A stretch of DNA of 45,197 bases from a virus: IMG/VR virus record IMGVR_UViG_3300004369_000731, positions 1-45,197 of that record. One strand, given 5' to 3'. The position numbers and the translations under genes were made by a program. The notes below the pieces were generated by a model. It had not been told where the DNA came from. It was given only the letters and a program-made list of their open reading frames with translations, and did no database searches. Below, one piece after another: positions 344-41,340 of this stretch; positions within the stretch are counted from its first letter, which is position 1; the number at the start of each line of letters is the position of its first letter.

Positions 344-369
344 AGTATTGAATGTTCAGGAGGAAAAAA

Positions 370-1383
370 ATGGGTAGACCGTATACTGGTTTTGATCAAA
401 TCGCTGGTGGTAAAAGAGCCGGGTTTGAAACTTTTATTGATCTTTTAGAGGCCCACTTTGGGTTATGGAATAACGGAACGTATGGTGTCCGTAAGAAGCG
501 TGGAAAGTCTTCGTATAGTGTTCACGCTACTGGCAGGGGCGGCGATCTTTCTTGGCGTGGTGCCCCGTATCGTGGTCCGGGTAATTATCAGGCTGCGGTG
601 AAGATGATGGATTTCCTTGCTGCTCATGCTGACGAGCTGTTTGTTGAAGCTATCTTTGATTATTATCCTGCTCCGCATGGTCGGGGCTGGAAGTGTGATC
701 GTGCAGCATGGCAGGTGTATGACAAGCCTGCTTTCTCTGGTGCGCCTGGAGGAGATTGGGTGCATGTTGAGGTAAGTAACGATAAGGCTGATGATCCCCA
801 GTATTACATTGATACGATGAAGCGTCTTCTTGGTGATCCTCCGAAGCCGGTTGTTCCTGCTCCTGCTCAGAAGACTCAGGTTCCTCCGCCTAACAAGTCG
901 CCTTGGTTCCAGCGTGGTTCTAAGGGTGAGGGTGTTAAGGAAGTTCAACGTATTGTTGGTGCTGATCCTGTAGACGGTGATTATGGGGCTAAAACCGAGG
1001 AAGCGGTAAAGGCTTATCAGGCTGATCATGATCTTCATGTGGATGGTATTTGGGGTCCAGGTTCCGAAAAGCATTCAAAGAATTGTGATTGTAAGGTTGA
1101 TGCTCCGGCTCCAGCCGATGCTCCTGCTCCTGCTCCAGAAGCCCCTCAGAAGGCCCCAGAAGCCCCTCAGAGCGCTTCTATGAAGTATCCCGGCCCACCA
1201 ATGATCAAGGTCGGTTCTTTAGAGAACGAGGCTGTGAAATTGATTCAGGCTAAGGTTGGTGCTAAAGTAGACGGAAATTATGGCCCACAAACCCGACAGA
1301 TGGTGCGCAACTGGCAGGCCGCTAATAGTTGCAAATCTGATGGCATTGTCGGTCCTTCTACTTGGAAGGCGATGTTCGGCTGA
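370..1383 (+). CDS. Endolysin: M15-like peptidase domain plus two peptidoglycan-binding repeats
   Basis: The product is 337 aa. I chose ATG 370 over the in-frame ATG at 352 because AGGAGG at 358-363 sits 6 nt before 370. The N-terminal domain (about residues 1-155) has a zinc-peptidase signature of the M15/VanY type: S-V-H52-A-T-G55-R-G-G-D59, matching SxHxxGxAxD except for the Ala, and a later W-V-H132 supplying the third metal ligand. Two PG_binding_1-like repeats follow, at about 180-240 and 275-337, each containing a D-G-x-Y/W-G-x-x-T/S pattern. A Pro/Ala-rich linker (APAPADAPAPAP-like) separates them. The likely role is cleavage of peptide cross-bridges in the host wall at lysis, with the repeats anchoring the enzyme to peptidoglycan. 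The peptidase class is inferred from the motif. The gene overlaps the following membrane gene by one base. Confidence 0.82.
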   Translation: MGRPYTGFDQIAGGKRAGFETFIDLLEAHFGLWNNGTYGVRKKRGKSSYSVHATGRGGDLSWRGAPYRGPGNYQAAVKMMDFLAAHADELFVEAIFDYYPAPHGRGWKCDRAAWQVYDKPAFSGAPGGDWVHVEVSNDKADDPQYYIDTMKRLLGDPPKPVVPAPAQKTQVPPPNKSPWFQRGSKGEGVKEVQRIVGADPVDGDYGAKTEEAVKAYQADHDLHVDGIWGPGSEKHSKNCDCKVDAPAPADAPAPAPEAPQKAPEAPQSASMKYPGPPMIKVGSLENEAVKLIQAKVGAKVDGNYGPQTRQMVRNWQAANSCKSDGIVGPSTWKAMFG

Positions 1384-2009: not shown

Positions 2010-4100
2010 ATGTCATGGTTTAGACCAAGTAAAACAAAGTATTTACCACTTATCTCTGTTGTTTCGGTAATACTGTTTAGCTTGTTTCCATCTATTGTTA
2101 ATGCGTCTTCATACACAGTTACTCAAGAGTCTGAGTGGACGTTTGCTCTGAATGAGGCTCAAACTGTGTACATCTACGGCAACTCCAACAGGGCCTGTAA
2201 CGAGCCTGGGGCCGACCCGTACCTGTGGCTATACGACGATGGCCCTGAAACAACTGGGACGCTGATCGCCCAAGATGATGACGGTAACCACAACTTCAAT
2301 GATCAGTGTGTTTCTTCAAAAATTGTTGCGAACCTGAACGCTGGGGATTATCTGATTCGGGCCGGGTATTGCTGCAATCAACGAGGGTTGGGATACGACG
2401 GGCCTGACTACGAACTGGTCATTACAGACGTTGAGCTGTACGGCGGACCCGCAACAACAACTACCACGACAATAACATCCAGCACGACCACGACGACGAT
2501 TCCGCAGACTGTCGGCGCACCAACAAATCTCAGCCTTAGCGTCGATTACGCCAACGGAACTGTGACCGTTGACTGGGATGCGCCAACTGACGGAACTCTC
2601 AGCCCAGAACGGTACGCCATCGGCTTTGGTCTCAATGACGAAGGTAACGCTGGTCCTTACGGGATCGCCACGGGGAATGTTGGCGATGCAAACGCTCTCA
2701 ATACCGAGTACACGTTCAACGCTTCTTATTTGCAGGCGATTTTTAGTGAAGCGCACGGCTTGTTTAACGTGATGATCCGTTCCGACGATGACACAAATGC
2801 GGTGTATTCGTCGTGGACTCCTGTGTCATCAGTGACGATCCGGAACATGCCGGATTCCGTAGACAGCACCACGATTTCTCAGGTGTACGGTTCTGGCCTG
2901 TCTTTAAGTTGGACGCCATCAACAGACGGTTTCGTTGATTCCGTTTACTACAAAATCCGTTATGACCAGAACGGTGAAGTCGTAAATGAAACCGCAAACA
3001 TCACGGAGACCGGCTACGCCATTCCGTACTCTGACATATCTGATGGCACGTGGTGGTTTAGCGTGCTGTCTTGTGGGTCAGAAGGTGACTGTAATGCTGG
3101 TGGTACAATAGAAGTAAACGTTTTTGATGAGGCAACATGGGACTCAAGCACTACCACGACAACTACTACAACAAGTACTACCACAACAAGTACGACAACA
3201 ACGTCTACAACAACGTCTACCACCACGACAACCACCACCTTGCCTCCACCCCCACTGGTGGCCCAGCCTTCGTCGCCCACGCCTCCGGCTACCACAACGA
3301 CCACAACCACTACGGTCGCCCCAACCTCGACTTCCTCAACAACGACCTCTACTACGACAACAACGACGACCCTCCCGCCCACAACGACGACGACTACCTC
3401 TACCACACTGCCCCCGACGACAACGGTTTTAACGACTACGACGAGTACGACGATCCCGCCGACTACGAGCACCTTACCTACTACTACGACAGTTAGTCCA
3501 ACAACGACTGTTGCTCCAACAACAACTGCTCCTCGGACAACCACCACCTCTATTCCTAGGCCGACAACTACAACAACTTTGCCGGTATTTGAGACTCAGC
3601 AAGAAGAAGAGGTATCTACTGCTTTAACAAGTATGGGCTTTGAAGTTAGGCCGGAGCAGATAAAAGAAATTGATCAAGCTGAACTTAAAGTTATTCAGTC
3701 GGTAGATTTTATTGATGTAAAACTTGCCGAAGACCTTATTGATGTCTTAGACGGTGAAATAACTATAGAAGAGATTGACAGCCTTATTCAAGATGAAAAT
3801 TTTGATGAACTACCAGATGAGGCTATTAATGTTATTGTTGACTCTTTAAACGAAACAAGCGATGATATTAAGGAGGAGTTTGAAGATAACGTAAATATTT
3901 TTGGTGATGACAATTATGACGACTATGTTCCGGCTGGGTCTGTTGTAGATACTGCTACGAGAAGAACTGTTGTGGCTGTCACTGCCGCTACTGCCGCTGC
4001 CACAGGCGCTGCGGCTGGCCCTAAGCCTTCAGGTGGATCTGGTGGAGGAGGCGGTGGGTCTGAAGGGCCTAAGAGAAGGTCCAGAGGAGGACGCAGATGA
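2010..4100 (+). CDS. Secreted Thr-rich multidomain surface protein (PPC-like, two FnIII-like domains)
   Basis: The product is 696 aa. A signal peptide occupies residues 1-32 (basic N-terminus, LPLISVVSVILFSLFPSI core, cleavage near VNA-SS). Residues ~33-145 resemble a pre-peptidase C-terminal (PPC) beta-domain, with DPYLWLYDD, AQDDDGNHN and LNAGDYLIRAGY. A short Thr linker leads to two fibronectin-III-like domains (~168-275 and ~282-372). A ~150-residue Thr/Pro low-complexity linker follows (~380-527), then an acidic helical region (~530-645). The protein ends with an Ala-rich hydrophobic stretch, a Gly run and a basic tail (PKRRSRGGRR). This plan looks like a secreted cell-surface protein of an actinobacterium rather than a virion part. 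It could be a captured host gene, an adhesin or a surface-modifying protein. Function is unknown. It overlaps the next gene by 4 nt. Confidence 0.65.
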   Translation: MSWFRPSKTKYLPLISVVSVILFSLFPSIVNASSYTVTQESEWTFALNEAQTVYIYGNSNRACNEPGADPYLWLYDDGPETTGTLIAQDDDGNHNFNDQCVSSKIVANLNAGDYLIRAGYCCNQRGLGYDGPDYELVITDVELYGGPATTTTTTITSSTTTTTIPQTVGAPTNLSLSVDYANGTVTVDWDAPTDGTLSPERYAIGFGLNDEGNAGPYGIATGNVGDANALNTEYTFNASYLQAIFSEAHGLFNVMIRSDDDTNAVYSSWTPVSSVTIRNMPDSVDSTTISQVYGSGLSLSWTPSTDGFVDSVYYKIRYDQNGEVVNETANITETGYAIPYSDISDGTWWFSVLSCGSEGDCNAGGTIEVNVFDEATWDSSTTTTTTTTSTTTTSTTTTSTTTSTTTTTTTLPPPPLVAQPSSPTPPATTTTTTTTVAPTSTSSTTTSTTTTTTTLPPTTTTTTSTTLPPTTTVLTTTTSTTIPPTTSTLPTTTTVSPTTTVAPTTTAPRTTTTSIPRPTTTTTLPVFETQQEEEVSTALTSMGFEVRPEQIKEIDQAELKVIQSVDFIDVKLAEDLIDVLDGEITIEEIDSLIQDENFDELPDEAINVIVDSLNETSDDIKEEFEDNVNIFGDDNYDDYVPAGSVVDTATRRTVVAVTAATAAATGAAAGPKPSGGSGGGGGGSEGPKRRSRGGRR
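3148..3570 (+). repeat. Low-complexity ACN (Thr/Pro) codon repeat
   Basis: About 420 bp of imperfect ACA/ACG/ACT triplet repeat encodes Thr runs broken by Ser and Pro-Pro. Its reverse complement reads as poly-Val and its +1 and +2 frames as Asn/Asp-, Tyr- or Gln/Arg-rich, so spurious ORFs appear in the other frames. Such tracts are prone to length change by slippage or recombination. Confidence 0.85.
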
Positions 4101-4282
4101 TAAAGAAAGCACTAAGAAAAATACTAAAAGAAGCATACTCACTAGCTTGGACACTCGCCGGTACCGGTCTTGTTTTAATCACTCTGTCAGGAAGTGTGCA
4201 GTTTTGGGGCACAATTATTAGCCTTATTGCTCTAGGCATACACTTACTTGCTGTTGCTTTTCTTTCGGATGACGATTTGTAA
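4097..4282 (+). CDS. Small membrane protein, unknown (holin-like topology)
   Basis: The product is 61 aa, starting with an ATGA overlap on the secreted-protein gene. A basic amphipathic N-terminus (MIKKALRKILKEAY) is followed by two hydrophobic segments, about residues 16-34 and 37-57, with almost no loop between them, and an acidic tail (SDDDL). AGAGGAGGACGCAG just upstream provides a good ribosome site. The topology suits a holin or a membrane anchor acting with the preceding secreted protein, to which it is translationally coupled. I recognise no family. Confidence 0.6.
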   Translation: MIKKALRKILKEAYSLAWTLAGTGLVLITLSGSVQFWGTIISLIALGIHLLAVAFLSDDDL

Positions 4283-4308: not shown

Positions 4309-4314
4309 TATAAT
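4309..4314 (+). promoter_or_regulatory. -10 element (TATAAT) ahead of Cys-rich micro-ORF and neck genes
   Basis: A consensus TATAAT at 4309-4314 lies in the only sizeable gap (4283-4337) before the neck genes. No good -35 is visible at 16-18 nt, and no TG extension. An AT-rich stretch follows, then AGGGAG (4328-4333), which would be the ribosome site of the micro-ORF at 4338. Confidence 0.5.
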
Positions 4315-4337
4315 GTAATATATACATAGGGAGACAT

Positions 4338-4415
4338 GTGAGGAATAAGTCTTGTAGTTGCGGTTGCGAATGTTCACAGCATTGCGATTGTGGTTGCTAT
4401 GATTGCGACTGCTGA
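4338..4415 (+). CDS. Cys-rich 25-aa micro-protein (metallothionein-like or polycysteine leader)
   Basis: GTG at 4338 is preceded by AGGGAG at 4328-4333 (4-nt spacing) and a TATAAT at 4309. The frame ends at TGA 4413-4415, 12 nt before the next gene. The 25 residues contain nine cysteines, at positions 6, 8, 10, 12, 16, 18, 20, 23 and 25, mostly as C-x-C pairs (CSCGCEC, then CDCGCYDCDC), with one His. Dense C-x-C spacing is typical of metallothionein-like metal binding. Alternatively, polycysteine leader ORFs are known in mycobacteria as cysteine-responsive attenuators of downstream genes. Position at the head of an operon fits that as well. Translation is inferred from the ribosome site. There is no database match I can name. 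Confidence 0.6.
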   Translation: MRNKSCSCGCECSQHCDCGCYDCDC

Positions 4416-4427
4416 ATGGAGAATTAA

Positions 4428-5351
4428 ATGGATGATGTAAAGATTGATACAGCGAAAACTCTTACTCTGACCTTGCCGTCAGATGCTGACAGCAATACTG
4501 TATCTGTGGTTTTAACGCATGAGTTTGGCGATGTGGTGCAGGCTGCTACGAACGCCACAAGATCGTCTGAGGGTGTTTATACGATCACCTTTGGTCAGGC
4601 GGCTTCTGGCATTTATGCTTTGAATTCTGCCGGTAAGCATAGAGCTGATTTTACATACTCTATTTCTGGTACCGAGTACGTACAATCTCAATACATCAAT
4701 GTGTACACTCCTTATATTGCTTGGTCAGAGTTTTTGACAAATCATCCCGAGTTGTCTGCTTTTGAAACACAATTTGATTCAATTGAGAAAAGAGCAAGAA
4801 ATATAATAAACACTTATTGTGGTCAAGAATTTGAGCACTATCCTGAAAAATCTTTTACTCTAGATGGTACAAATCATAAGAATATTCATCTACCTATTCC
4901 AATCGCTACTCTAAGAAAAGTTACGATGAACTCTGGGGATTCTGATTCTGAAGTGATTCATGATTCTACCGATGCTTCTTTGAACAACATTGAAAAAGTT
5001 CGTCAACCTTTCCATTTTGAGTCATCTTACTACATTAGATTTAAAGCAAATATTGTTCAAACCAACACTTCTCGTTTACTTGGTAAGACCTTTAAAGAGC
5101 ATTCTGATTACAAGATTGAAGGCGACTTTGGTTGGAGATACGTACCCAATAACGTAAGACAAGCGGCGGATCTAATTATTGCTGATCTTATGAATGATGA
5201 TTCTGAATATCGTCGTCATGGAATCACTAGTGTAGACATGGACACTGTGCGCTTTTCAATGAAGTCAAGCTTCTATGAATCAACAGGGAACATTGAAGCA
5301 GATGTTCTTTTGACTGACTATACACTGTTTGTGATGGACTATGTTACCTGA
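4428..5351 (+). CDS. Head-tail adaptor (connector) protein, gp6-like, with N-terminal Ig-like domain
   Basis: The product is 307 aa; GGAG 8 nt before the ATG. Residues ~1-95 form a beta-rich domain (alternating TLTLTLP, YTITF, ADFTYSISG). Residues ~100-307 resemble the helical adaptor family of HK97 gp6 type. That match rests on the phrase DYKIEGDFGWRYVPNNVRQAADLIIADLMN near residues 228-265, equivalent to the usual G-x-W/FG-Y-x-x-VP-x-x-V-x-x-A-A motif. Family members form the ring that sits under the portal. The three small genes that follow are the expected neck and terminator proteins in the usual order. The N-terminal domain is an addition to the usual ~100-200-aa adaptor. Confidence 0.7.
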   Translation: MDDVKIDTAKTLTLTLPSDADSNTVSVVLTHEFGDVVQAATNATRSSEGVYTITFGQAASGIYALNSAGKHRADFTYSISGTEYVQSQYINVYTPYIAWSEFLTNHPELSAFETQFDSIEKRARNIINTYCGQEFEHYPEKSFTLDGTNHKNIHLPIPIATLRKVTMNSGDSDSEVIHDSTDASLNNIEKVRQPFHFESSYYIRFKANIVQTNTSRLLGKTFKEHSDYKIEGDFGWRYVPNNVRQAADLIIADLMNDDSEYRRHGITSVDMDTVRFSMKSSFYESTGNIEADVLLTDYTLFVMDYVT

Positions 5352-29778: not shown

Positions 29779-30297
29779 ATGGCTAATATTTGCCTAGATG
29801 TTGATGGTGTCGTTGCCGACTTGGTTGGCGGGATCAATAGAGAACTAGATAAGCGTGGCTTGCCAGATTTTGATTATGCTCATTGGGTTGTGGGTGTGTT
29901 TGAGGATGAGTTGACGCAGGAGATTTTTGGTGAGGCTACGTTTTGGAAGAATTTGAAGCCTTTTGTTGATTCTTGGTATCAGTTGGGTGAGTGGTGGGAT
30001 CAGGGTCATGATATTTTTTTGGTGACTGCTCGTTATTCTGATGCGGCTAGGCGTGTGTTGTTGCCGTGGTTGGATGATTGGAGGTTGCAGTATTCTCAGG
30101 TGTTTTTTGCTGAGATGGGTTCTAAGTTGGAGGTTGTTCGTGGGCTTGATCCTGTGGTGATGGTTGAGGATAATCCTTATGAGGTTCGTGCGTTGAGGGA
30201 GGGTGGTGTTGATTGTTTGTTGATGCGGGCTTGGTATAATTCGGAGTTTTGGGAGGATTTTCCTTCTGTTGGTGCTTTATCGGAGGTTGTTCTGTGA
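29779..30297 (+). CDS. HAD-fold 5'-(deoxy)ribonucleotidase-like protein
   Basis: The product is 172 aa from ATG 29779, behind AAAGG; a longer in-frame reading to 29728 lacks a ribosome site. HAD motif I is at the N-terminus: CLDVDGVVADL, with nucleophile D7 and D9. A T in FLVTARYS is motif II, a Lys in SKLEVV motif III, and VMVEDNPYEV motif IV. The short cap with aromatic residues (FEDELTQEIFGEATFWKNL) is typical of the NT5C-like family. Such enzymes dephosphorylate nucleoside monophosphates and could adjust the nucleotide pool. From here on the top strand is C-poor and G/T-rich, unlike the preceding genes. Confidence 0.75.
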   Translation: MANICLDVDGVVADLVGGINRELDKRGLPDFDYAHWVVGVFEDELTQEIFGEATFWKNLKPFVDSWYQLGEWWDQGHDIFLVTARYSDAARRVLLPWLDDWRLQYSQVFFAEMGSKLEVVRGLDPVVMVEDNPYEVRALREGGVDCLLMRAWYNSEFWEDFPSVGALSEVVL

Positions 30298-31433
30298 AGT
30301 TTGGTTCGTTGTTTGCTGGTGTTGGTGGTTTTGATTTGGGTTTTGAGGCTGCTGGTTTTGAGTGTTGCTGGCAGGTTGAGTGGGATAAGTATTGTCAGGA
30401 GGTGTTGGGGTTTAGGTGGCCTGATGTTCCTAAGTTTGGGGATATTCGGGGTGTTTCTGGTTATGATTTGGAGCCTGTGGATGTTATTACGTATGGGTTT
30501 CCTTGTCAGGATTTGAGTATTGCTGGTCATCAGGCTGGCCTTGATGGTGAGCGTTCTGGTTTGTTTTTTGAAGCTATTCGTATTATTAAGGAGATGAGAG
30601 ATGCAACAGATGGACAATTCCCAAAGGTCGCTATCGCAGAGAATGTCACAGGGTTGCTCTCTGCCGACGGAGGATCTGCGATGGGGAGATGCCTTGACAC
30701 GCTGGCCGAAGCAGGGGCATTGGCAATCGAGTGGTGTGTCTTGGACTCGCAATGGTTCGGAGTTCCCCAGAGACGGAAGCGGGTGTTCCTTGCCTCTGTC
30801 TTCGATTCTGTTGCGGCCAGAAGATGTTGCGGAGAAATTTTTTCTGTCGCAGAAAGCGGCGCAGGGTATCCTGAACAGGTCGGAGCGGAGGGGGAAGAAG
30901 TTGCCGGATTTGTTGAGGGTGGCTCTGGAAACGTTGGTACGTTCAGACTCTTGAGTTTTGGTGAGTATGTTGATGATGGTACGTCTTCGACTGTTCAGGC
31001 TAGGGATTATAAGTATGCTACTGATTTGGTGACTTTTGTTAAGTCTAGGAGGGCGCAGACGAGTGAGGATTTTGAGACTTGGGTTGAGGGTGGTCCTGCT
31101 CCTACGTTGAATCAGTTTGATCTTGGTGATACGAGGTCTACTGTGGCTGTGTTGTCTTTTGATACGAAGTTTGGTTCTAATGCTAATGTGTTTGAGAATG
31201 TTTCTCCGACGTTGAAGGCGAGTCAGGGGTCTCCGAGTTTTGTTGATGGGGTTTCTACTAGGAGGCTTACTCCTGTGGAGTGTGAGCGTTTGATGGGGTG
31301 GCCTGATGATCATACGAAGTTTCGGGCTGATGGTAAGGTAACTTCTGATTCTCAGAGGTTTAAGATGTGTGGTAATGGGGTTGTTGCTCCTGTTGCTGGT
31401 TGGGTTGCTAAGAGTATTGCGAGGGTTTTGTGA
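30294..31433 (+). CDS. DNA (cytosine-5) methyltransferase
   Basis: The product is 379 aa from GTG 30294 (GTGA overlap; GGAGG 8 nt upstream). Canonical C5-MTase motifs are visible in order: I, SLFAGVGGFDLGFEAAGF (SAM site); IV, GFPCQDLS with the catalytic Cys; VI, IAENVTGLL; VIII, VPQRRKRVF; and IX/X near the C-terminus (LTPVECERLMGWP, CGNGVVAPVAGWVAKSI). A target-recognition region lies around residues 165-290. The enzyme should methylate cytosine in phage DNA, probably for protection from host restriction. Bases 30601-30954 also encode a second frame, listed separately, and differ in composition from the rest of the gene. Confidence 0.9.
   Translation: MKFGSLFAGVGGFDLGFEAAGFECCWQVEWDKYCQEVLGFRWPDVPKFGDIRGVSGYDLEPVDVITYGFPCQDLSIAGHQAGLDGERSGLFFEAIRIIKEMRDATDGQFPKVAIAENVTGLLSADGGSAMGRCLDTLAEAGALAIEWCVLDSQWFGVPQRRKRVFLASVFDSVAARRCCGEIFSVAESGAGYPEQVGAEGEEVAGFVEGGSGNVGTFRLLSFGEYVDDGTSSTVQARDYKYATDLVTFVKSRRAQTSEDFETWVEGGPAPTLNQFDLGDTRSTVAVLSFDTKFGSNANVFENVSPTLKASQGSPSFVDGVSTRRLTPVECERLMGWPDDHTKFRADGKVTSDSQRFKMCGNGVVAPVAGWVAKSIARVL
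30601..30954 (+). CDS. Nested +1-frame ORF inside the methyltransferase (candidate overlapping gene)
   Basis: ATG 30601 is 7 nt after AAGGAG (30588-30593), and the frame runs 117 codons to TGA 30952-30954. The N-terminal half is polar (MQQMDNSQRSLSQRM). The second half reads like a folded basic protein, with SGCSLPLSSILL, VAEKFFLSQKAAQGIL, NRSERRGKKLPDLLRVALE. From memory this second half resembles segments of phage proteins associated with cytosine methyltransferases. By hand count C is about 22% over 30601-30900 against about 10% over 30301-30600. A shift that begins at the nested start fits double coding constraint. Alternatively this is a recombined patch in the methyltransferase and the frame is a by-product. 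Confidence 0.55.
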   Translation: MQQMDNSQRSLSQRMSQGCSLPTEDLRWGDALTRWPKQGHWQSSGVSWTRNGSEFPRDGSGCSLPLSSILLRPEDVAEKFFLSQKAAQGILNRSERRGKKLPDLLRVALETLVRSDS

Positions 31434-34400: not shown

Positions 34401-34810
34401 ATGATTATGTTGGAACAGAACTTTACGATCTGACCATGCTTGTTCGTAAAGGCAAGGATCATGAGTATTCATGGCTGTATGAAACGGGTCTTGGTGATTC
34501 TTCAGATGAACGTAGCCTGTTGTATATCTTTAGCACAAGGACGTTTACAACGTCTAAGGGTAAAGATATGTGCAACTTCTACGCTTGGGACGGAGAGAAG
34601 ATTATCAAGGTCGTAGTTTTTCCGTTCTTGTACGGAAAAATGCGTCATTTATTCGGAAAAACCGGATGGCACGCTGCTAAACTAAAAGGAGTGAAGGACT
34701 TGGAAGCGGCGGCTCGTCTTGATTCGTACACTTTAGATAACGAGAACTCACTTATCACTATTGACAACTACATCGAAAGAAAGGGTTTAGTCAGAGAGAA
34801 TGTCAGTTAA
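31430..34810 (+). CDS. dnaE: DNA polymerase III alpha subunit (DnaE-type, C-family)
   Basis: The product is 1126 aa from GTG 31430 (GTGA overlap; GAGGG upstream), nearly the length of bacterial DnaE (~1160). The PHP domain opens with VHLHCHSEYSLLDGMSRPED and contains ITDHGTMGG and ADCHFPSAHDAHDEEVLL. The palm has GRGTGRGSVGGSLIAF (~377) and YPDIDLDFED (~415, the catalytic D-x-D), with the third Asp in KVDILGLKTVSVI (~567). A fingers/HhH-like region with SHAVAYSMLSYQTMWLK follows (~760). An OB-like region is likely near 930-1080. It should be the phage replicase. No proofreading subunit is encoded in the window. The first ~2.8 kb is C-poor and G/T-rich, changing near 34240 to the composition of the following genes. 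Confidence 0.9.
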   Translation: MTDFVHLHCHSEYSLLDGMSRPEDIARIASSNGQFAAAITDHGTMGGVLKFQDACDASGVRPLFGIEAYFVPSIESDSDSKYERFHLILLAKNNAGLQKLFKANQVGWKDNFYYKPRMDFALLEELVDDDIVALSGCMGGAISKAIERGDDAEAERLSERFIKIFGDDFYYEVQAWNPVSLNEKLIDLAGSFNKKVVATADCHFPSAHDAHDEEVLLMVSQYPSLNAGQVRHAKENLSGGGTVTDKINRMYPDRFLRFDEIKPYVAPADEVLSWFADKGFNNPEYLENTIEVADKCSARIEKRKNLLPKYIKALDSDDYLREICEFALSEKGLDDDVYRDRLASELEIIKGLGFSDYFLMVWDLVKWADANDVGRGTGRGSVGGSLIAFVLDISKVDPIKYNLLFARFINPDRNDYPDIDLDFEDKQRDRVKQYLAERWGEDNVAAIATYGVFKPKSVIKDVARVFQVPFDETNSVTPFFETLEELQATDKGKTFIKKYPEVLPVAQKLEGRIRNTGIHAAGMVVSSVPLTEICPVETRKGTTGEGRAPVTSFDMEDAEAVGLIKVDILGLKTVSVIKDCISKIKEIHGVDVTEASLGLDDPEVFKNFNEGNTVGVFQADAAAYRNLIERMGIDDFNDLVVSNALVRPGALLSQGQTYIDCKKGEANPKYPHEVVKDILEETYGTVIFQEQLMQMAVVLAGFSWSEADKLRKIIGKKRDAAGFDEYREKFCNNEYLTRKQSEKIWADFELAALYMFNKSHAVAYSMLSYQTMWLKINYPKEFVWSMLYNESEKGKITAYLMEASRLGIAVLPPDVNLSGESFSIDDEGIRFGLRNVLSCGNTAIEEIFKHRPFESFDEFTNKCSKRHVKAPLRENLDKVGAFASMGYESAYDHERYYLPILGFAIGMGSSSNEMDEVVEPIEGFHEIYSELRLVKAVVRSTKKTPKYLRVEIEDQTASTTVFCDRNSEIANRDFMYCLIGDRTMHMFCDAYDYVGTELYDLTMLVRKGKDHEYSWLYETGLGDSSDERSLLYIFSTRTFTTSKGKDMCNFYAWDGEKIIKVVVFPFLYGKMRHLFGKTGWHAAKLKGVKDLEAAARLDSYTLDNENSLITIDNYIERKGLVRENVS

Positions 34811-35504
34811 GTCATTCAAGATCACTAACGACTACGGTAGCATCGACTACTACATAAATGATGAAGAGATGGTCAAACAGATTACACCCAATCTGTTTTT
34901 TGAGCAGCAGTATGTTGAGAAGTGGCTGGCTCCGATTATTGAGAAATCAAGCGTCGCCTTAGATATTGGTGCTCATTGTGGCTCTCATACTCTGATGTAC
35001 AAGAAGATAAATCCAGACATAAGCATCTACGCTTTTGAGCCTCAGTCTATGATGTACGATTTGCTGTGTAAAAATATCATCAGCAATCAACTGATCAATG
35101 TCGCCTGCTATAACAAAGCTGTAGGCAATGTTTCTGGCACAGTCGAGATGAACAGTTACGCATTTGATGGTCAGAACTCAACAGAACAGATTGAGTACGG
35201 AACAAGTAATCTTTACAATCTTGCTGGCCTAGAGATTGGTCATGGGGGTGAGTCGGTGGAAATGGTCACAATTGATGACTACGATTTCCCAGAAGTTGAC
35301 TTTATGAAGATTGATGTTGAAGGTTATGAGCCTCTTGTCTTAGAGGGTGCTATCAATACGATTAAAAGATGTAGGCCGATTATTAGTTACGAATTAAACA
35401 GCAAGCGTGCTGATGGTGTTACAAGAAGCTCCCATGAGATTTTGACCAACATTGGTTACGCTTGTAGAAATGTTTGGGGCGATAACTGGTTAGCAATTTA
35501 CTAA
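34800..35504 (+). CDS. FkbM-family methyltransferase
   Basis: The product is 234 aa, overlapping the polymerase by 11 nt with AGAGAG upstream. A Rossmann-type SAM site is VALDIGAHCGSHTLMY (~52-67), followed by YAFEPQSMMYDLL (acidic loop) and the late FkbM signature MKIDVEGYEPLVLEGA (~173-188). Family members usually O-methylate sugars or polyketides. In this phage, with two glycosyltransferases in the window, methylation of a glycan on the virion, on DNA or on the host surface is plausible. The substrate cannot be read from sequence. Confidence 0.82.
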   Translation: MSVKSFKITNDYGSIDYYINDEEMVKQITPNLFFEQQYVEKWLAPIIEKSSVALDIGAHCGSHTLMYKKINPDISIYAFEPQSMMYDLLCKNIISNQLINVACYNKAVGNVSGTVEMNSYAFDGQNSTEQIEYGTSNLYNLAGLEIGHGGESVEMVTIDDYDFPEVDFMKIDVEGYEPLVLEGAINTIKRCRPIISYELNSKRADGVTRSSHEILTNIGYACRNVWGDNWLAIY

Positions 35505-39074: not shown

Positions 39075-39345
39075 GCAGTGGCTGTACGACCATTATGTCA
39101 AGCGTCGTATGAACTTAACGGATATCTGTAAGAGGCTTAAAGAGAGTTACAATATTGAGGTTACCCCTCAGGCAGTTTATAACTGGGTTAAAAAGTATGA
39201 TCTTCTTAAGTACAGAGGTAAAGGTCGAAATCTGGGTCAGACAAGCATGAGGAGGCCCAAGTCTCCAATGCAGCAGGCTGTAGAAAAGAAGCGTCGTGAG
39301 ATGCAAAAAATTAATAGACAAAGAAAGAAAGGTAGAGGAATTTGA
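39049..39345 (+). CDS. Helix-turn-helix DNA-binding protein
   Basis: The product is 98 aa from GTG 39049, overlapping the resolvase by 26 nt; no clear ribosome site. Residues ~8-50 read DKQWLYDHYVKRRMNLTDICKRL...VTPQAVYNWVKKYDLLKYRG, a homeodomain-like HTH of the kind found in transposase, resolvase and small-terminase proteins: a first helix with acidic-aromatic residues, then a second with AVYNWVKKY. A very basic tail follows (RRPKSPMQQAVEKKRREMQKINRQRKKGRGI). It probably binds DNA non-specifically through the tail and specifically via the HTH. The target is unknown. Confidence 0.65.
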   Translation: MATEPYKDKQWLYDHYVKRRMNLTDICKRLKESYNIEVTPQAVYNWVKKYDLLKYRGKGRNLGQTSMRRPKSPMQQAVEKKRREMQKINRQRKKGRGI

Positions 39346-40094
39346 GAAGATCTGTTAACACTAAAGATATTGCAACTTTTGCAAAGCTTGATATGATTTA
39401 CAATCAAGTTAGATTGTTGGAGGCTAAGCAGAATCAGACGGAGTATAAATGTCTTGGTTCTGGTAAGTGCTGTTCCATCGGTCTGAATATCCACATGGCT
39501 GAATGTGCAAGTATTGCTTTCAACCTTCGTCAGCAATATTATCTTTACATGGAAGATAAGGGCATGGATTATGCTGATGAATGGATGAGCAGCGTAGTTG
39601 ATGCTCTCAAGGAGGCCATGTATGATGAGGACTGGCAGGTCGGTGGTGAGACTACTCGCAAGTGTGTGTTCTTTAAGGATGGCTGCACGATCTATGGGTT
39701 CAGGCCGATGGTTTGTAGGACGTTCGGAACTATTAGCGCAGTTGATGATTATTGCCCTAGGATTAGAAATTCGCATGGTCAGATTGATTACTTTGCTGGT
39801 GAAGGTGTAAGAAAGATTATTACTGCTTTTCAGGATCTTCTGAAGGAGTACACATCAGATAAGCATGAGAATTACGATATGGTTGTCTACATGCCACTTG
39901 GTGTTCTTTCATTTCTTTTGACTACTGAAGAGTTGGAAGAGTTGTCTAAGAACACAGACGACAAGTTCTGGAAGGCTGTTCCTGGGTGGTTTAACTATAG
40001 AGTTCAGTACACGAAGGAGCATGGATACGATAGAGAGTACCTTAACGACCAGGCTGTTTCTATTGGTAAAAAGCTTGTATTCTCTGAGGAATAA
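39342..40094 (+). CDS. YkgJ-like cysteine-cluster protein
   Basis: The product is 250 aa from TTG 39342 (TTGA overlap; AGAGG upstream). Two Cys groups are visible: YKCLGSGKCCSIG (~35-47) and KCVFFKDGCTIYGFRPMVCRTFG (~106-128). This C-x5-C-C...C-x5-C-x-I/Y-x-x-R-P-x-x-C-R arrangement defines the YkgJ/UPF0153 family, thought to bind iron or zinc. The biochemical role is unknown even in bacteria. The C-terminal half is helical and acidic. It ends the tightly packed replication-recombination operon; the next 99 nt are non-coding. Confidence 0.75.
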   Translation: MRRSVNTKDIATFAKLDMIYNQVRLLEAKQNQTEYKCLGSGKCCSIGLNIHMAECASIAFNLRQQYYLYMEDKGMDYADEWMSSVVDALKEAMYDEDWQVGGETTRKCVFFKDGCTIYGFRPMVCRTFGTISAVDDYCPRIRNSHGQIDYFAGEGVRKIITAFQDLLKEYTSDKHENYDMVVYMPLGVLSFLLTTEELEELSKNTDDKFWKAVPGWFNYRVQYTKEHGYDREYLNDQAVSIGKKLVFSEE

Positions 40095-40193: not shown

Positions 40194-40319
40194 ATGCAGA
40201 TAAAGATTGTTAACGAGACTTTAGAAAAAGTCTCTGAGAACGAATCTTTTACTATTTACAGAGTAATTGAAGATGCAGAACAAGATTTGCTGGAGAACGC
40301 TGTCGAAGAGCAAGGCTGA
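40194..40319 (+). CDS. 41-aa acidic micro-ORF overlapping the glycosyltransferase start
   Basis: ATG 40194 is preceded by GAAGGGGGG (40180-40188), the strongest ribosome site in the gap. The product, 41 aa, is acidic: MQIKIVNETLEKVSENESF and DAEQDLLENAVEEQG. It overlaps the glycosyltransferase gene by 47 nt in another frame. It might be a real small protein or a translated leader that delivers ribosomes to the downstream start, which lacks a good ribosome site of its own. Unknown function. Confidence 0.5.
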   Translation: MQIKIVNETLEKVSENESFTIYRVIEDAEQDLLENAVEEQG

Positions 40320-41340
40320 CGGCTACGGTTATGCGTCATGGAAGATCTCCTCTGGGTTGAGAGGCTTGGCAATGCCAGTCTTTTACCCAGAGGAACTTTC
40401 ATGTTATAAGGGCATTTCTGAGCGGAGCATAAATATCTCTCTTGATACAGGTCTTACCTATCAGTCCATACCTGACTTTGACAATATTGATATTATGATT
40501 AACAATACTTTGCCTGTTGATTATAAGATCACACCTTCTTACAACATTGGTTTTAGTTATTGGGAGACTGATACTTTGCCTCCTAGCTGGAAATCAAGAA
40601 TTTTAGAGTGCGATGAGGTATGGACTACTTCATCTTGGGCTAGAGATGTGTTCATTAACAATACTGGCCACAGTAATGTTCATTCTTTTGATCTTGGTGT
40701 TAACACTGAAATATTCCAGCCGAGTTTAGAAACTGTCTCGGATAAAGGTTTTATTTTTACTCATGTTGGAAGTCCTTCACTAAGAAAAAACACACAAATG
40801 GCAGTTGATGCTTTTGTTAAGACTTTTGGAACTAATAAGGACTTCAAGCTGATTATCAAGTCAATTGGTCCTCCTGATGCTAGGTATCGTGTGGGCGGGA
40901 TGAATTTGGGTGCTATTTCTCAGCGTCCTAGGATTGAGGTAATAGATTATGAGATTTCAGAGCATGAACTTGCTGATTTGTATAGAAAGACTGATTGTTT
41001 GATTTACCCAACAATGGGTGAGGGGTGGGGCATGATACCATTTAATGCTATTGCATGTGGTACGCCTACTATTTGTACGAATGCTACTGCTTGCACCGAG
41101 TACGCGGAAATGTCCGTACCTTTAGATTTTACTTGGTCTAGTCAAGGTACTTCTGGTATTTATGCTGGCGGCAAATGGGCTTATCCAGACTTTGATGATC
41201 TATGTGATAAGATGAGGTACGTTGTAGATAATTACGATCAAGTTAAGCAGAAGACGTTAAAATCTGCTAAAATTATTCATAAGGAATATTCTTGGGATAG
41301 AGTAATCCAACGCTACAAGGAGCGTCTGTGTCAGATATAG
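40273..41340 (+). CDS. GT-B glycosyltransferase (GT4-like)
   Basis: The product is 355 aa from ATG 40273; TTG 40267 is possible, and neither has a clear ribosome site. The C-terminal half has the GT4 pattern: FTHVGSPSLRKNTQMAVDAF (G-x-x-x-x-K-N), KLIIKSIG, VIDYEISEHELADLYRKTDCLIYPT, and EGWGMIPFNAIACGTPTI (~250-267), where E-G-x-G...A-x-A-C-G-T-P is the nucleotide-sugar-binding motif. The N-terminal half is an acceptor-type domain with YWETDTLPPSW and WTTSSWARDVF. It transfers a sugar to an unknown acceptor, possibly DNA, a tail protein or a host glycan. The other glycosyltransferase lies at the end of the window. Confidence 0.82.
   Translation: MQNKICWRTLSKSKADGYGYASWKISSGLRGLAMPVFYPEELSCYKGISERSINISLDTGLTYQSIPDFDNIDIMINNTLPVDYKITPSYNIGFSYWETDTLPPSWKSRILECDEVWTTSSWARDVFINNTGHSNVHSFDLGVNTEIFQPSLETVSDKGFIFTHVGSPSLRKNTQMAVDAFVKTFGTNKDFKLIIKSIGPPDARYRVGGMNLGAISQRPRIEVIDYEISEHELADLYRKTDCLIYPTMGEGWGMIPFNAIACGTPTICTNATACTEYAEMSVPLDFTWSSQGTSGIYAGGKWAYPDFDDLCDKMRYVVDNYDQVKQKTLKSAKIIHKEYSWDRVIQRYKERLCQI

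Follow-up and report, generated by a model that had tools for sequence, protein, structure and literature searches.

The window analysed here, the whole 45,197-nucleotide stretch of viral record IMGVR_UViG_3300004369_000731, holds a 25-codon reading frame with nine cysteines immediately before a gene for the virion neck. This raises the questions of whether so short a frame is a gene at all and, if it is, whether it acts through its peptide or merely through being translated.

The reading frame and its surroundings

The initial annotation had described a GTG-initiated ORF of 25 codons and nine cysteines, preceded by an AGGGAG and a TATAAT and separated by 12 nt from the next gene, and all of these features were borne out when the DNA was read again (Table 1). 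The translated peptide is VRNKSCSCGCECSQHCDCGCYDCDC (36% Cys), and its ORF is the most Cys-rich of the 597 small ORFs (15 to 60 aa) in the window; the ATG after the 12-nt gap, at 4428, is that of the adaptor gene. A sigma-70 consensus scan found no -35 element to match the TATAAT, which is therefore regarded only as a putative promoter element. With just 25 codons and a GTG start, the frame could be taken to have arisen by chance in a short stretch between genes, but none of 200 order-2 Markov sequences of window length contained an ORF with at least nine Cys at 30% or more, and the family conservation and purifying selection described below also speak against chance. The comparative data refute this explanation, to which we give next to no credence.

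Table 1. Features at and around the Cys ORF in the window
Feature	Position	Strand	Details
Endolysin gene, in the cassette preceding the Cys ORF	352..1383	+	PHROG endolysin matches; PG_binding_1 1.2e-23
Small membrane protein gene, upstream	4097..4282	+	phrog_29041 4e-07
TATAAT, -10-like element	4309..4314	+	context TTTTTAGGTATAATG; read directly
AGGGAG, Shine-Dalgarno-like, for the Cys ORF	4328..4333	+	read from sequence
Nine-cysteine peptide gene	4338..4415	+	25 aa; GTG start 4338-4340, TGA stop 4413-4415
Head-tail adaptor (connector) gene, directly downstream	4428..5351	+	phrog_442 head-tail adaptor 5e-10

The adaptor is 25% identical, over 97%, to proteins annotated as head-to-tail adaptors in Streptomyces phages. 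The host may belong to the Actinomycetota, judging solely from these phages as the nearest cultured adaptor relatives; a scan of GTDB genomes with the connector found no relative. The endolysin combines an M15-like motif, SVHATGRGGD...WVHVE (read from sequence), with peptidoglycan-binding domains. The small membrane protein is a conserved neighbor in the lysis/stalk cassette of relatives, and its homologue shares a cassette with an M15-like lysin in the loci of context B, defined below. Positions 2010-4100 of the window encode a protein of 696 aa that contains long tracts rich in Thr (TTTTTT...) and whose C-terminus is basic and rich in Gly, and its homologues sit at the same place in most carriers of the Cys ORF. 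Farther away, at 39342-40094, lies the gene for what is possibly a second metal-handling protein, whose CxxCxxCC domain is a putative chelator of zinc or iron (PF03692, 3.7e-06). The phage also encodes an FkbM-type methyltransferase, a GT4-like glycosyltransferase, and a C-5 cytosine methylase (34800-35504, 40267-41340, and 30249-31433).

Distribution at the lysis/virion junction

Conservation of the frame and its Cys positions in related phages had been set beforehand as the decisive comparison, and the ORF came through it, with no frame breaks found. The bias-free route was to search viral contigs with the adaptor protein and then to read the DNA upstream, so that the cysteines played no part in the search. 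The Cys ORF proved to be intact in loci L001-L003, whose adaptors are 89-93% identical to that of the window, and in L011-L017 (68-83%), in every case with all nine Cys at identical spacing and 10-27 nt before the adaptor. An AAGGAG occupies the Shine-Dalgarno position in L001-L003, L012, and L016. L011 and L013/L014 have no such site, and their ATG lies about 6 nt past the TATAAT (in L011 at about 2898-2914), so that their mRNA would be leaderless. Farther afield, in L018-L080, the DNA that precedes the adaptor is unrelated (L058 ends there). The TTAGGTATAAT element is kept in L002, L011, and L013, and also in the L004-L010 clade (adaptor 84% identical), which has the adaptor's GCTGAATGGAG ribosome site and no Cys ORF. 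Loss of the ORF is the simpler reading of this clade, because L011-L014 and more distant lineages carry it, and the loss implies that the ORF is dispensable. The clade amounts to a natural knockout, with a deletion upstream of the adaptor (for example, at 2870-3000 in L010). No relocated copy was found in its two large contigs, no family member elsewhere in the 25 related contigs without an ORF at the connector, and no decayed or frame-shifted copies were seen.

The family was delimited with a strict pattern, K-x-C-x-C-x-C-x-C-x3-C-x-C-G-C-x2-C-x-C-stop, which matches 66 viral contigs, each match being a plausible short gene that adjoins one of two virion genes; it matches nothing in 84,980 bacterial and archaeal species genomes. 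Members are 25-33 aa long, with or without a short N-terminal extension (one has a longer apparent N-terminus), and no indels occur within the nine-Cys pattern across the family. Among the matches listed, a first, looser pattern gave mostly out-of-frame artefacts of repeat-rich DNA. When the pattern was relaxed or widened, no true member turned up in which the spacing differed or the chain continued past the last Cys; the wider patterns picked up just repeat-rich DNA read out of frame and a few Cys-rich stretches that are unrelated. Two longer phage proteins, in L257 (242 aa ORF) and L252 (113 aa ORF), have dense C-x-C tails, e.g., DCNCDCDCMCDCSCDCECDCDCSGCDCSC, which are possibly unrelated metallothionein-like domains. 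A tblastn search of cultured phages with the peptide gave no match, a weak negative because low-complexity filtering may have hidden the peptide.

The gene occurs in two contexts. Context A comprises 22 loci, the window among them, and has the adaptor gene next; in context B (45 loci, one of which ends before the next gene) the gene that follows encodes a protein of 109-113 aa that resembles the LtfC beta-sandwich family (PF23926 at 7e-05, below its cut-off; phrog_3304 and phrog_1084). A beta-sandwich domain common to both downstream proteins was considered and is not claimed, the profile comparison giving a probability of 1%. The ORF ends 0-34 nt (median, 8) before the next gene. It is mostly preceded by a lysis/stalk cassette that comprises a stalk protein rich in Thr, small membrane proteins, an M15-like lysin with the motif SVHATGxxxD...W.H.E, and sometimes a nuclease. 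In most members the Cys ORF directly follows the lysis gene, often overlapping its stop codon, and in 24 loci the ORF start lies on the lysin stop codon. This arrangement leaves no room for a promoter, so the earlier placement of the ORF at the head of the neck-gene operon holds for the window and its close relatives and not for most of the family.

Among 80 loci found with the M15-like lysin, the peptide is present in 17, absent from 62, and cut by the contig end in one; it occurs in every one of the 17 loci that have an LtfC-like gene after the lysin and in no locus with another gene there. The LtfC-like gene search found the peptide in 23 of 80 loci, and all copies from both searches are intact; loci within one search are mutually related, so none of these counts represents independent events. 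Many of the 57 LtfC-like loci without the peptide follow a different, VanY-like M15 lysin, and they often show an AT-rich, promoter-like stretch before the gene. Among L355-L418, loci without the Cys ORF often have, some 30 nt ahead of the LtfC-like gene, a promoter/ribosome site that is rich in AT and resembles TTTGATAATATCTTATAGGAG. The Cys ORF is thus an accessory gene of the lysis/virion junction, since L004-L010 live without it and it is missing beside most relatives of either downstream gene, and it is not bound to one lysin, nor obligatorily to either virion gene.

These distributions bear on the suggestion that the peptide carries a metal cluster for one specific partner, either as zinc donor to, or inhibitor of, the adjoining M15-type zinc lysin or as a metal-stabilised part of the neck. 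In its favor, most carriers encode an M15-like lysin a short way upstream, with at least two different M15-like types represented, and what follows the ORF is without exception a virion gene, for the adaptor or the LtfC-like protein. However, the 62 M15-like lysin loci without the ORF (one further contig is cut within it) weigh against a lysin partner, as do carriers with another type of lysin or none in view, namely, L086 (a GH25/DUF1906-like lysin, typed by eye), L222 (a peptidoglycan-binding protein), and L017 (a fibre-like gene), and both virion genes often occur without the Cys ORF. We consider a dedicated partner of either kind unlikely, and the zinc lysin was rejected as a general explanation of the gene's location.

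Selection on the peptide and on the RNA

Selection was examined in 38 distinct core DNA sequences, which encode 33 distinct core peptides. Among the 38 sequences, TGC and TGT both occur at each of the nine Cys positions. K4, C6, C8, C10, C12, C16, C18, G19, C20, C23, and C25 are invariant; the strict pattern itself forces K4, the Cys, and G19, and the connector, lysin, and LtfC searches show the same residues unforced. G9 is nearly invariant and R2 mostly conserved, and an acidic residue stands at position 14 in 36 and at position 21 in 37 of the 38 core sequences. The pN/pS ratio is 0.20 overall and 0.47 at the non-Cys codons, where the pattern forces only K4 and G19, and third codon positions hold 8247 of the 12943 pairwise differences. 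Nine cysteines at exact spacing in every copy imply a real protein, and, judged from the aligned copies, the Cys ORF is a real conserved gene under purifying selection on its protein. Very short phage genes, below the usual length cut-off of annotation, can thus be strongly conserved.

Signals in the RNA were weak by comparison. The transcript from 4320 to 4460 folds no better than shuffled versions of itself (z -1.0), a consensus fold shows compensatory change in only 1 of 19 pairs, and in 26 of 300 trials of synonymous permutation across the family mean energies were at least as low. Rfam returned only a sub-threshold snoRNA match, and the gap between the ORF and the next gene contains no terminator or T-run. 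An RNA attenuator was rejected, since the fold, the alignment fold, and the synonymous-permutation test are all weak.

The initial annotation had also proposed a polycysteine leader that senses cysteine supply. In a leader of this kind, as reported for leaderless polycysteine ORFs of mycobacteria, ribosomes stalling on Cys codons would alter expression of the downstream neck gene, and the peptide itself would have no role. Several features fit such a leader. The Cys ORF comes first after the promoter-like site in the window and several relatives, L011 and L013/L014 are apparently leaderless, the phages may infect Actinomycetota, and the short gap to the next gene makes translational coupling plausible; a mild coupling effect on that gene is possible. 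However, the consensus contains no Cys-Cys (adjacent Cys occur only in a single sequence type, L126/L158/L162, which has an additional Cys15), and what is conserved besides the spacing is K4, G19, and mostly R2 and G9. The gap holds no attenuator-like signal and RNA folding is at chance level, many copies are operon internal and begin on the lysin stop codon, and the downstream gene is a virion gene and not a sulfur gene. L004-L010, moreover, keep the promoter-like element and the adaptor without the ORF. With neither a Cys run, a terminator, an RNA-structure signal apart from the constraint of coding, nor a sulfur gene downstream, the leader proposal finds no support, and we regard it as highly improbable.

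A predicted metal-thiolate peptide and known systems

The reading that we favor, and consider probable, is that the ORF is a translated late phage gene whose 25-33 aa peptide would bind Zn2+ and/or Cu+, both d10 ions, in one thiolate cluster. The peptide has the traits of metallothioneins: about one third of its residues are Cys, C-x-C motifs run throughout its 25-33 aa, and aromatic residues, besides His, are absent from most members, with one Tyr in the window peptide and one Tyr or Phe in a few others. It also has Gly and acidic spacers and is too short for a signal peptide. The nine fixed Cys positions, the purifying selection, and the synonymous drift of the Cys codons support, to the extent that sequence evidence allows, the alternative suggestion of the initial annotation, a minimal metallothionein-like protein. 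Such a peptide would be made in the reducing cytoplasm alongside the lysis and neck/tail genes, its late expression being suggested by these neighbors, and would work like a minimal metallothionein with a single thiolate cluster. Nine is the Cys number of the mammalian beta-domain cluster Zn3Cys9, and on that basis we would expect each peptide to bind about three ions if divalent and about four to six if monovalent. Its probable role is to buffer or scavenge metal, or to provide it to metalloproteins that are synthesised simultaneously. Translation, metal binding, this stoichiometry, and a benefit late in infection are all what we infer from the genomic evidence. No metal-responsive element was identified.

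Cys richness by itself fits redox use as well as metal binding, and the cysteines could instead serve as a thiol reservoir or form disulfides in a redox or thiol-stress peptide without stable metal binding. The dense C-x-C motifs, the acidic and Gly spacers, the exact spacing, and the lack of room for a signal peptide would favor metal thiolate over cytoplasmic disulfides, and a redox peptide seems to us very unlikely.

Searches of Pfam, NCBIfam, PHROGs, and PDB sequences at permissive E-values gave no match, short Cys-dense queries being poorly suited to profile searches. As the peptide has the spacing of neither the mammalian beta-domain nor the fungal Cu-metallothioneins and matches no curated family or solved structure, we call it metallothionein-like in its predicted action and do not place it in a known metallothionein family. 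To our knowledge, no phage-carried metallothionein is known, and full-text searches of the literature available found no description of one. It is quite possible, although we advance this more tentatively, that the family consists of miniature metallothioneins specific to phages, which would rank with the shortest known and might be the first from a bacteriophage. Deployed together with the lysis and neck genes as infection ends, they would control zinc or copper in the host or act for a partner, the zinc lysin or a neck protein. If true, a 25-residue peptide with nine fixed Cys would count among the smallest metal-cluster proteins in nature, easily synthesised and tested, and it would raise the question of why a metal buffer is wanted exactly at neck assembly and lysis.

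Among cultured phages, the Stanwilliamsviridae of Streptomyces (EGole and the related Lululemon) have a distant relative of the head-to-tail adaptor and the same order of neck and tail genes; between their adaptor and the gene after the major capsid gene, no Cys peptide is annotated and a lysis cassette is likewise absent. Bacterial metallothioneins of the SmtA type, and MymT of mycobacteria, which are actinobacteria, are small cytoplasmic Cys-rich metal-binding proteins. They are about 50 aa or longer, do not have the pattern of the phage peptide, and are host genes, and the phage peptide has no Pfam or NCBIfam match that would join it to them. The mammalian metallothionein beta-domain also differs from the phage peptide in its Cys spacing, and it is half of a two-domain protein, whereas the phage peptide stands alone and has no sequence family match.

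Polycysteine ORFs of mycobacteria are reported to be leaderless attenuators (Canestrari et al. 2020, via PMC9094748). They resemble the phage ORF in being short, Cys rich, and placed before an operon, and the phage ORF looks leaderless in a few relatives, only L011 and L013/L014; the window ORF has an AGGGAG and a leader, unlike the leaderless starts of the mycobacterial ORFs. The phage ORF further differs in having no poly-Cys run, a fixed spacing with other residues conserved as well, virion genes downstream, an often operon-internal position, and no attenuator structure.

The mammalian beta-domain forms a Zn3Cys9 cluster (PMC10243857). The domain is like the phage peptide in having nine Cys in about 20-30 residues, rich in C-x-C, and by analogy the peptide would be expected to have the capacity for one M3S9 cluster. 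The fungal Cu-metallothioneins of Neurospora and Agaricus have 26 aa and seven Cys, arranged as CXC-x5-CXC-x3-CXC-x2-C (PMC4755600). The phage peptide departs from this family 8 pattern, with nine Cys arranged as CxCxCxC-x3-CxCGC-x2-CxC and Cys at the C-terminus, but it is nearly the same length, is likewise built from C-x-C motifs, and by analogy would likewise be a single tiny cluster-forming peptide.
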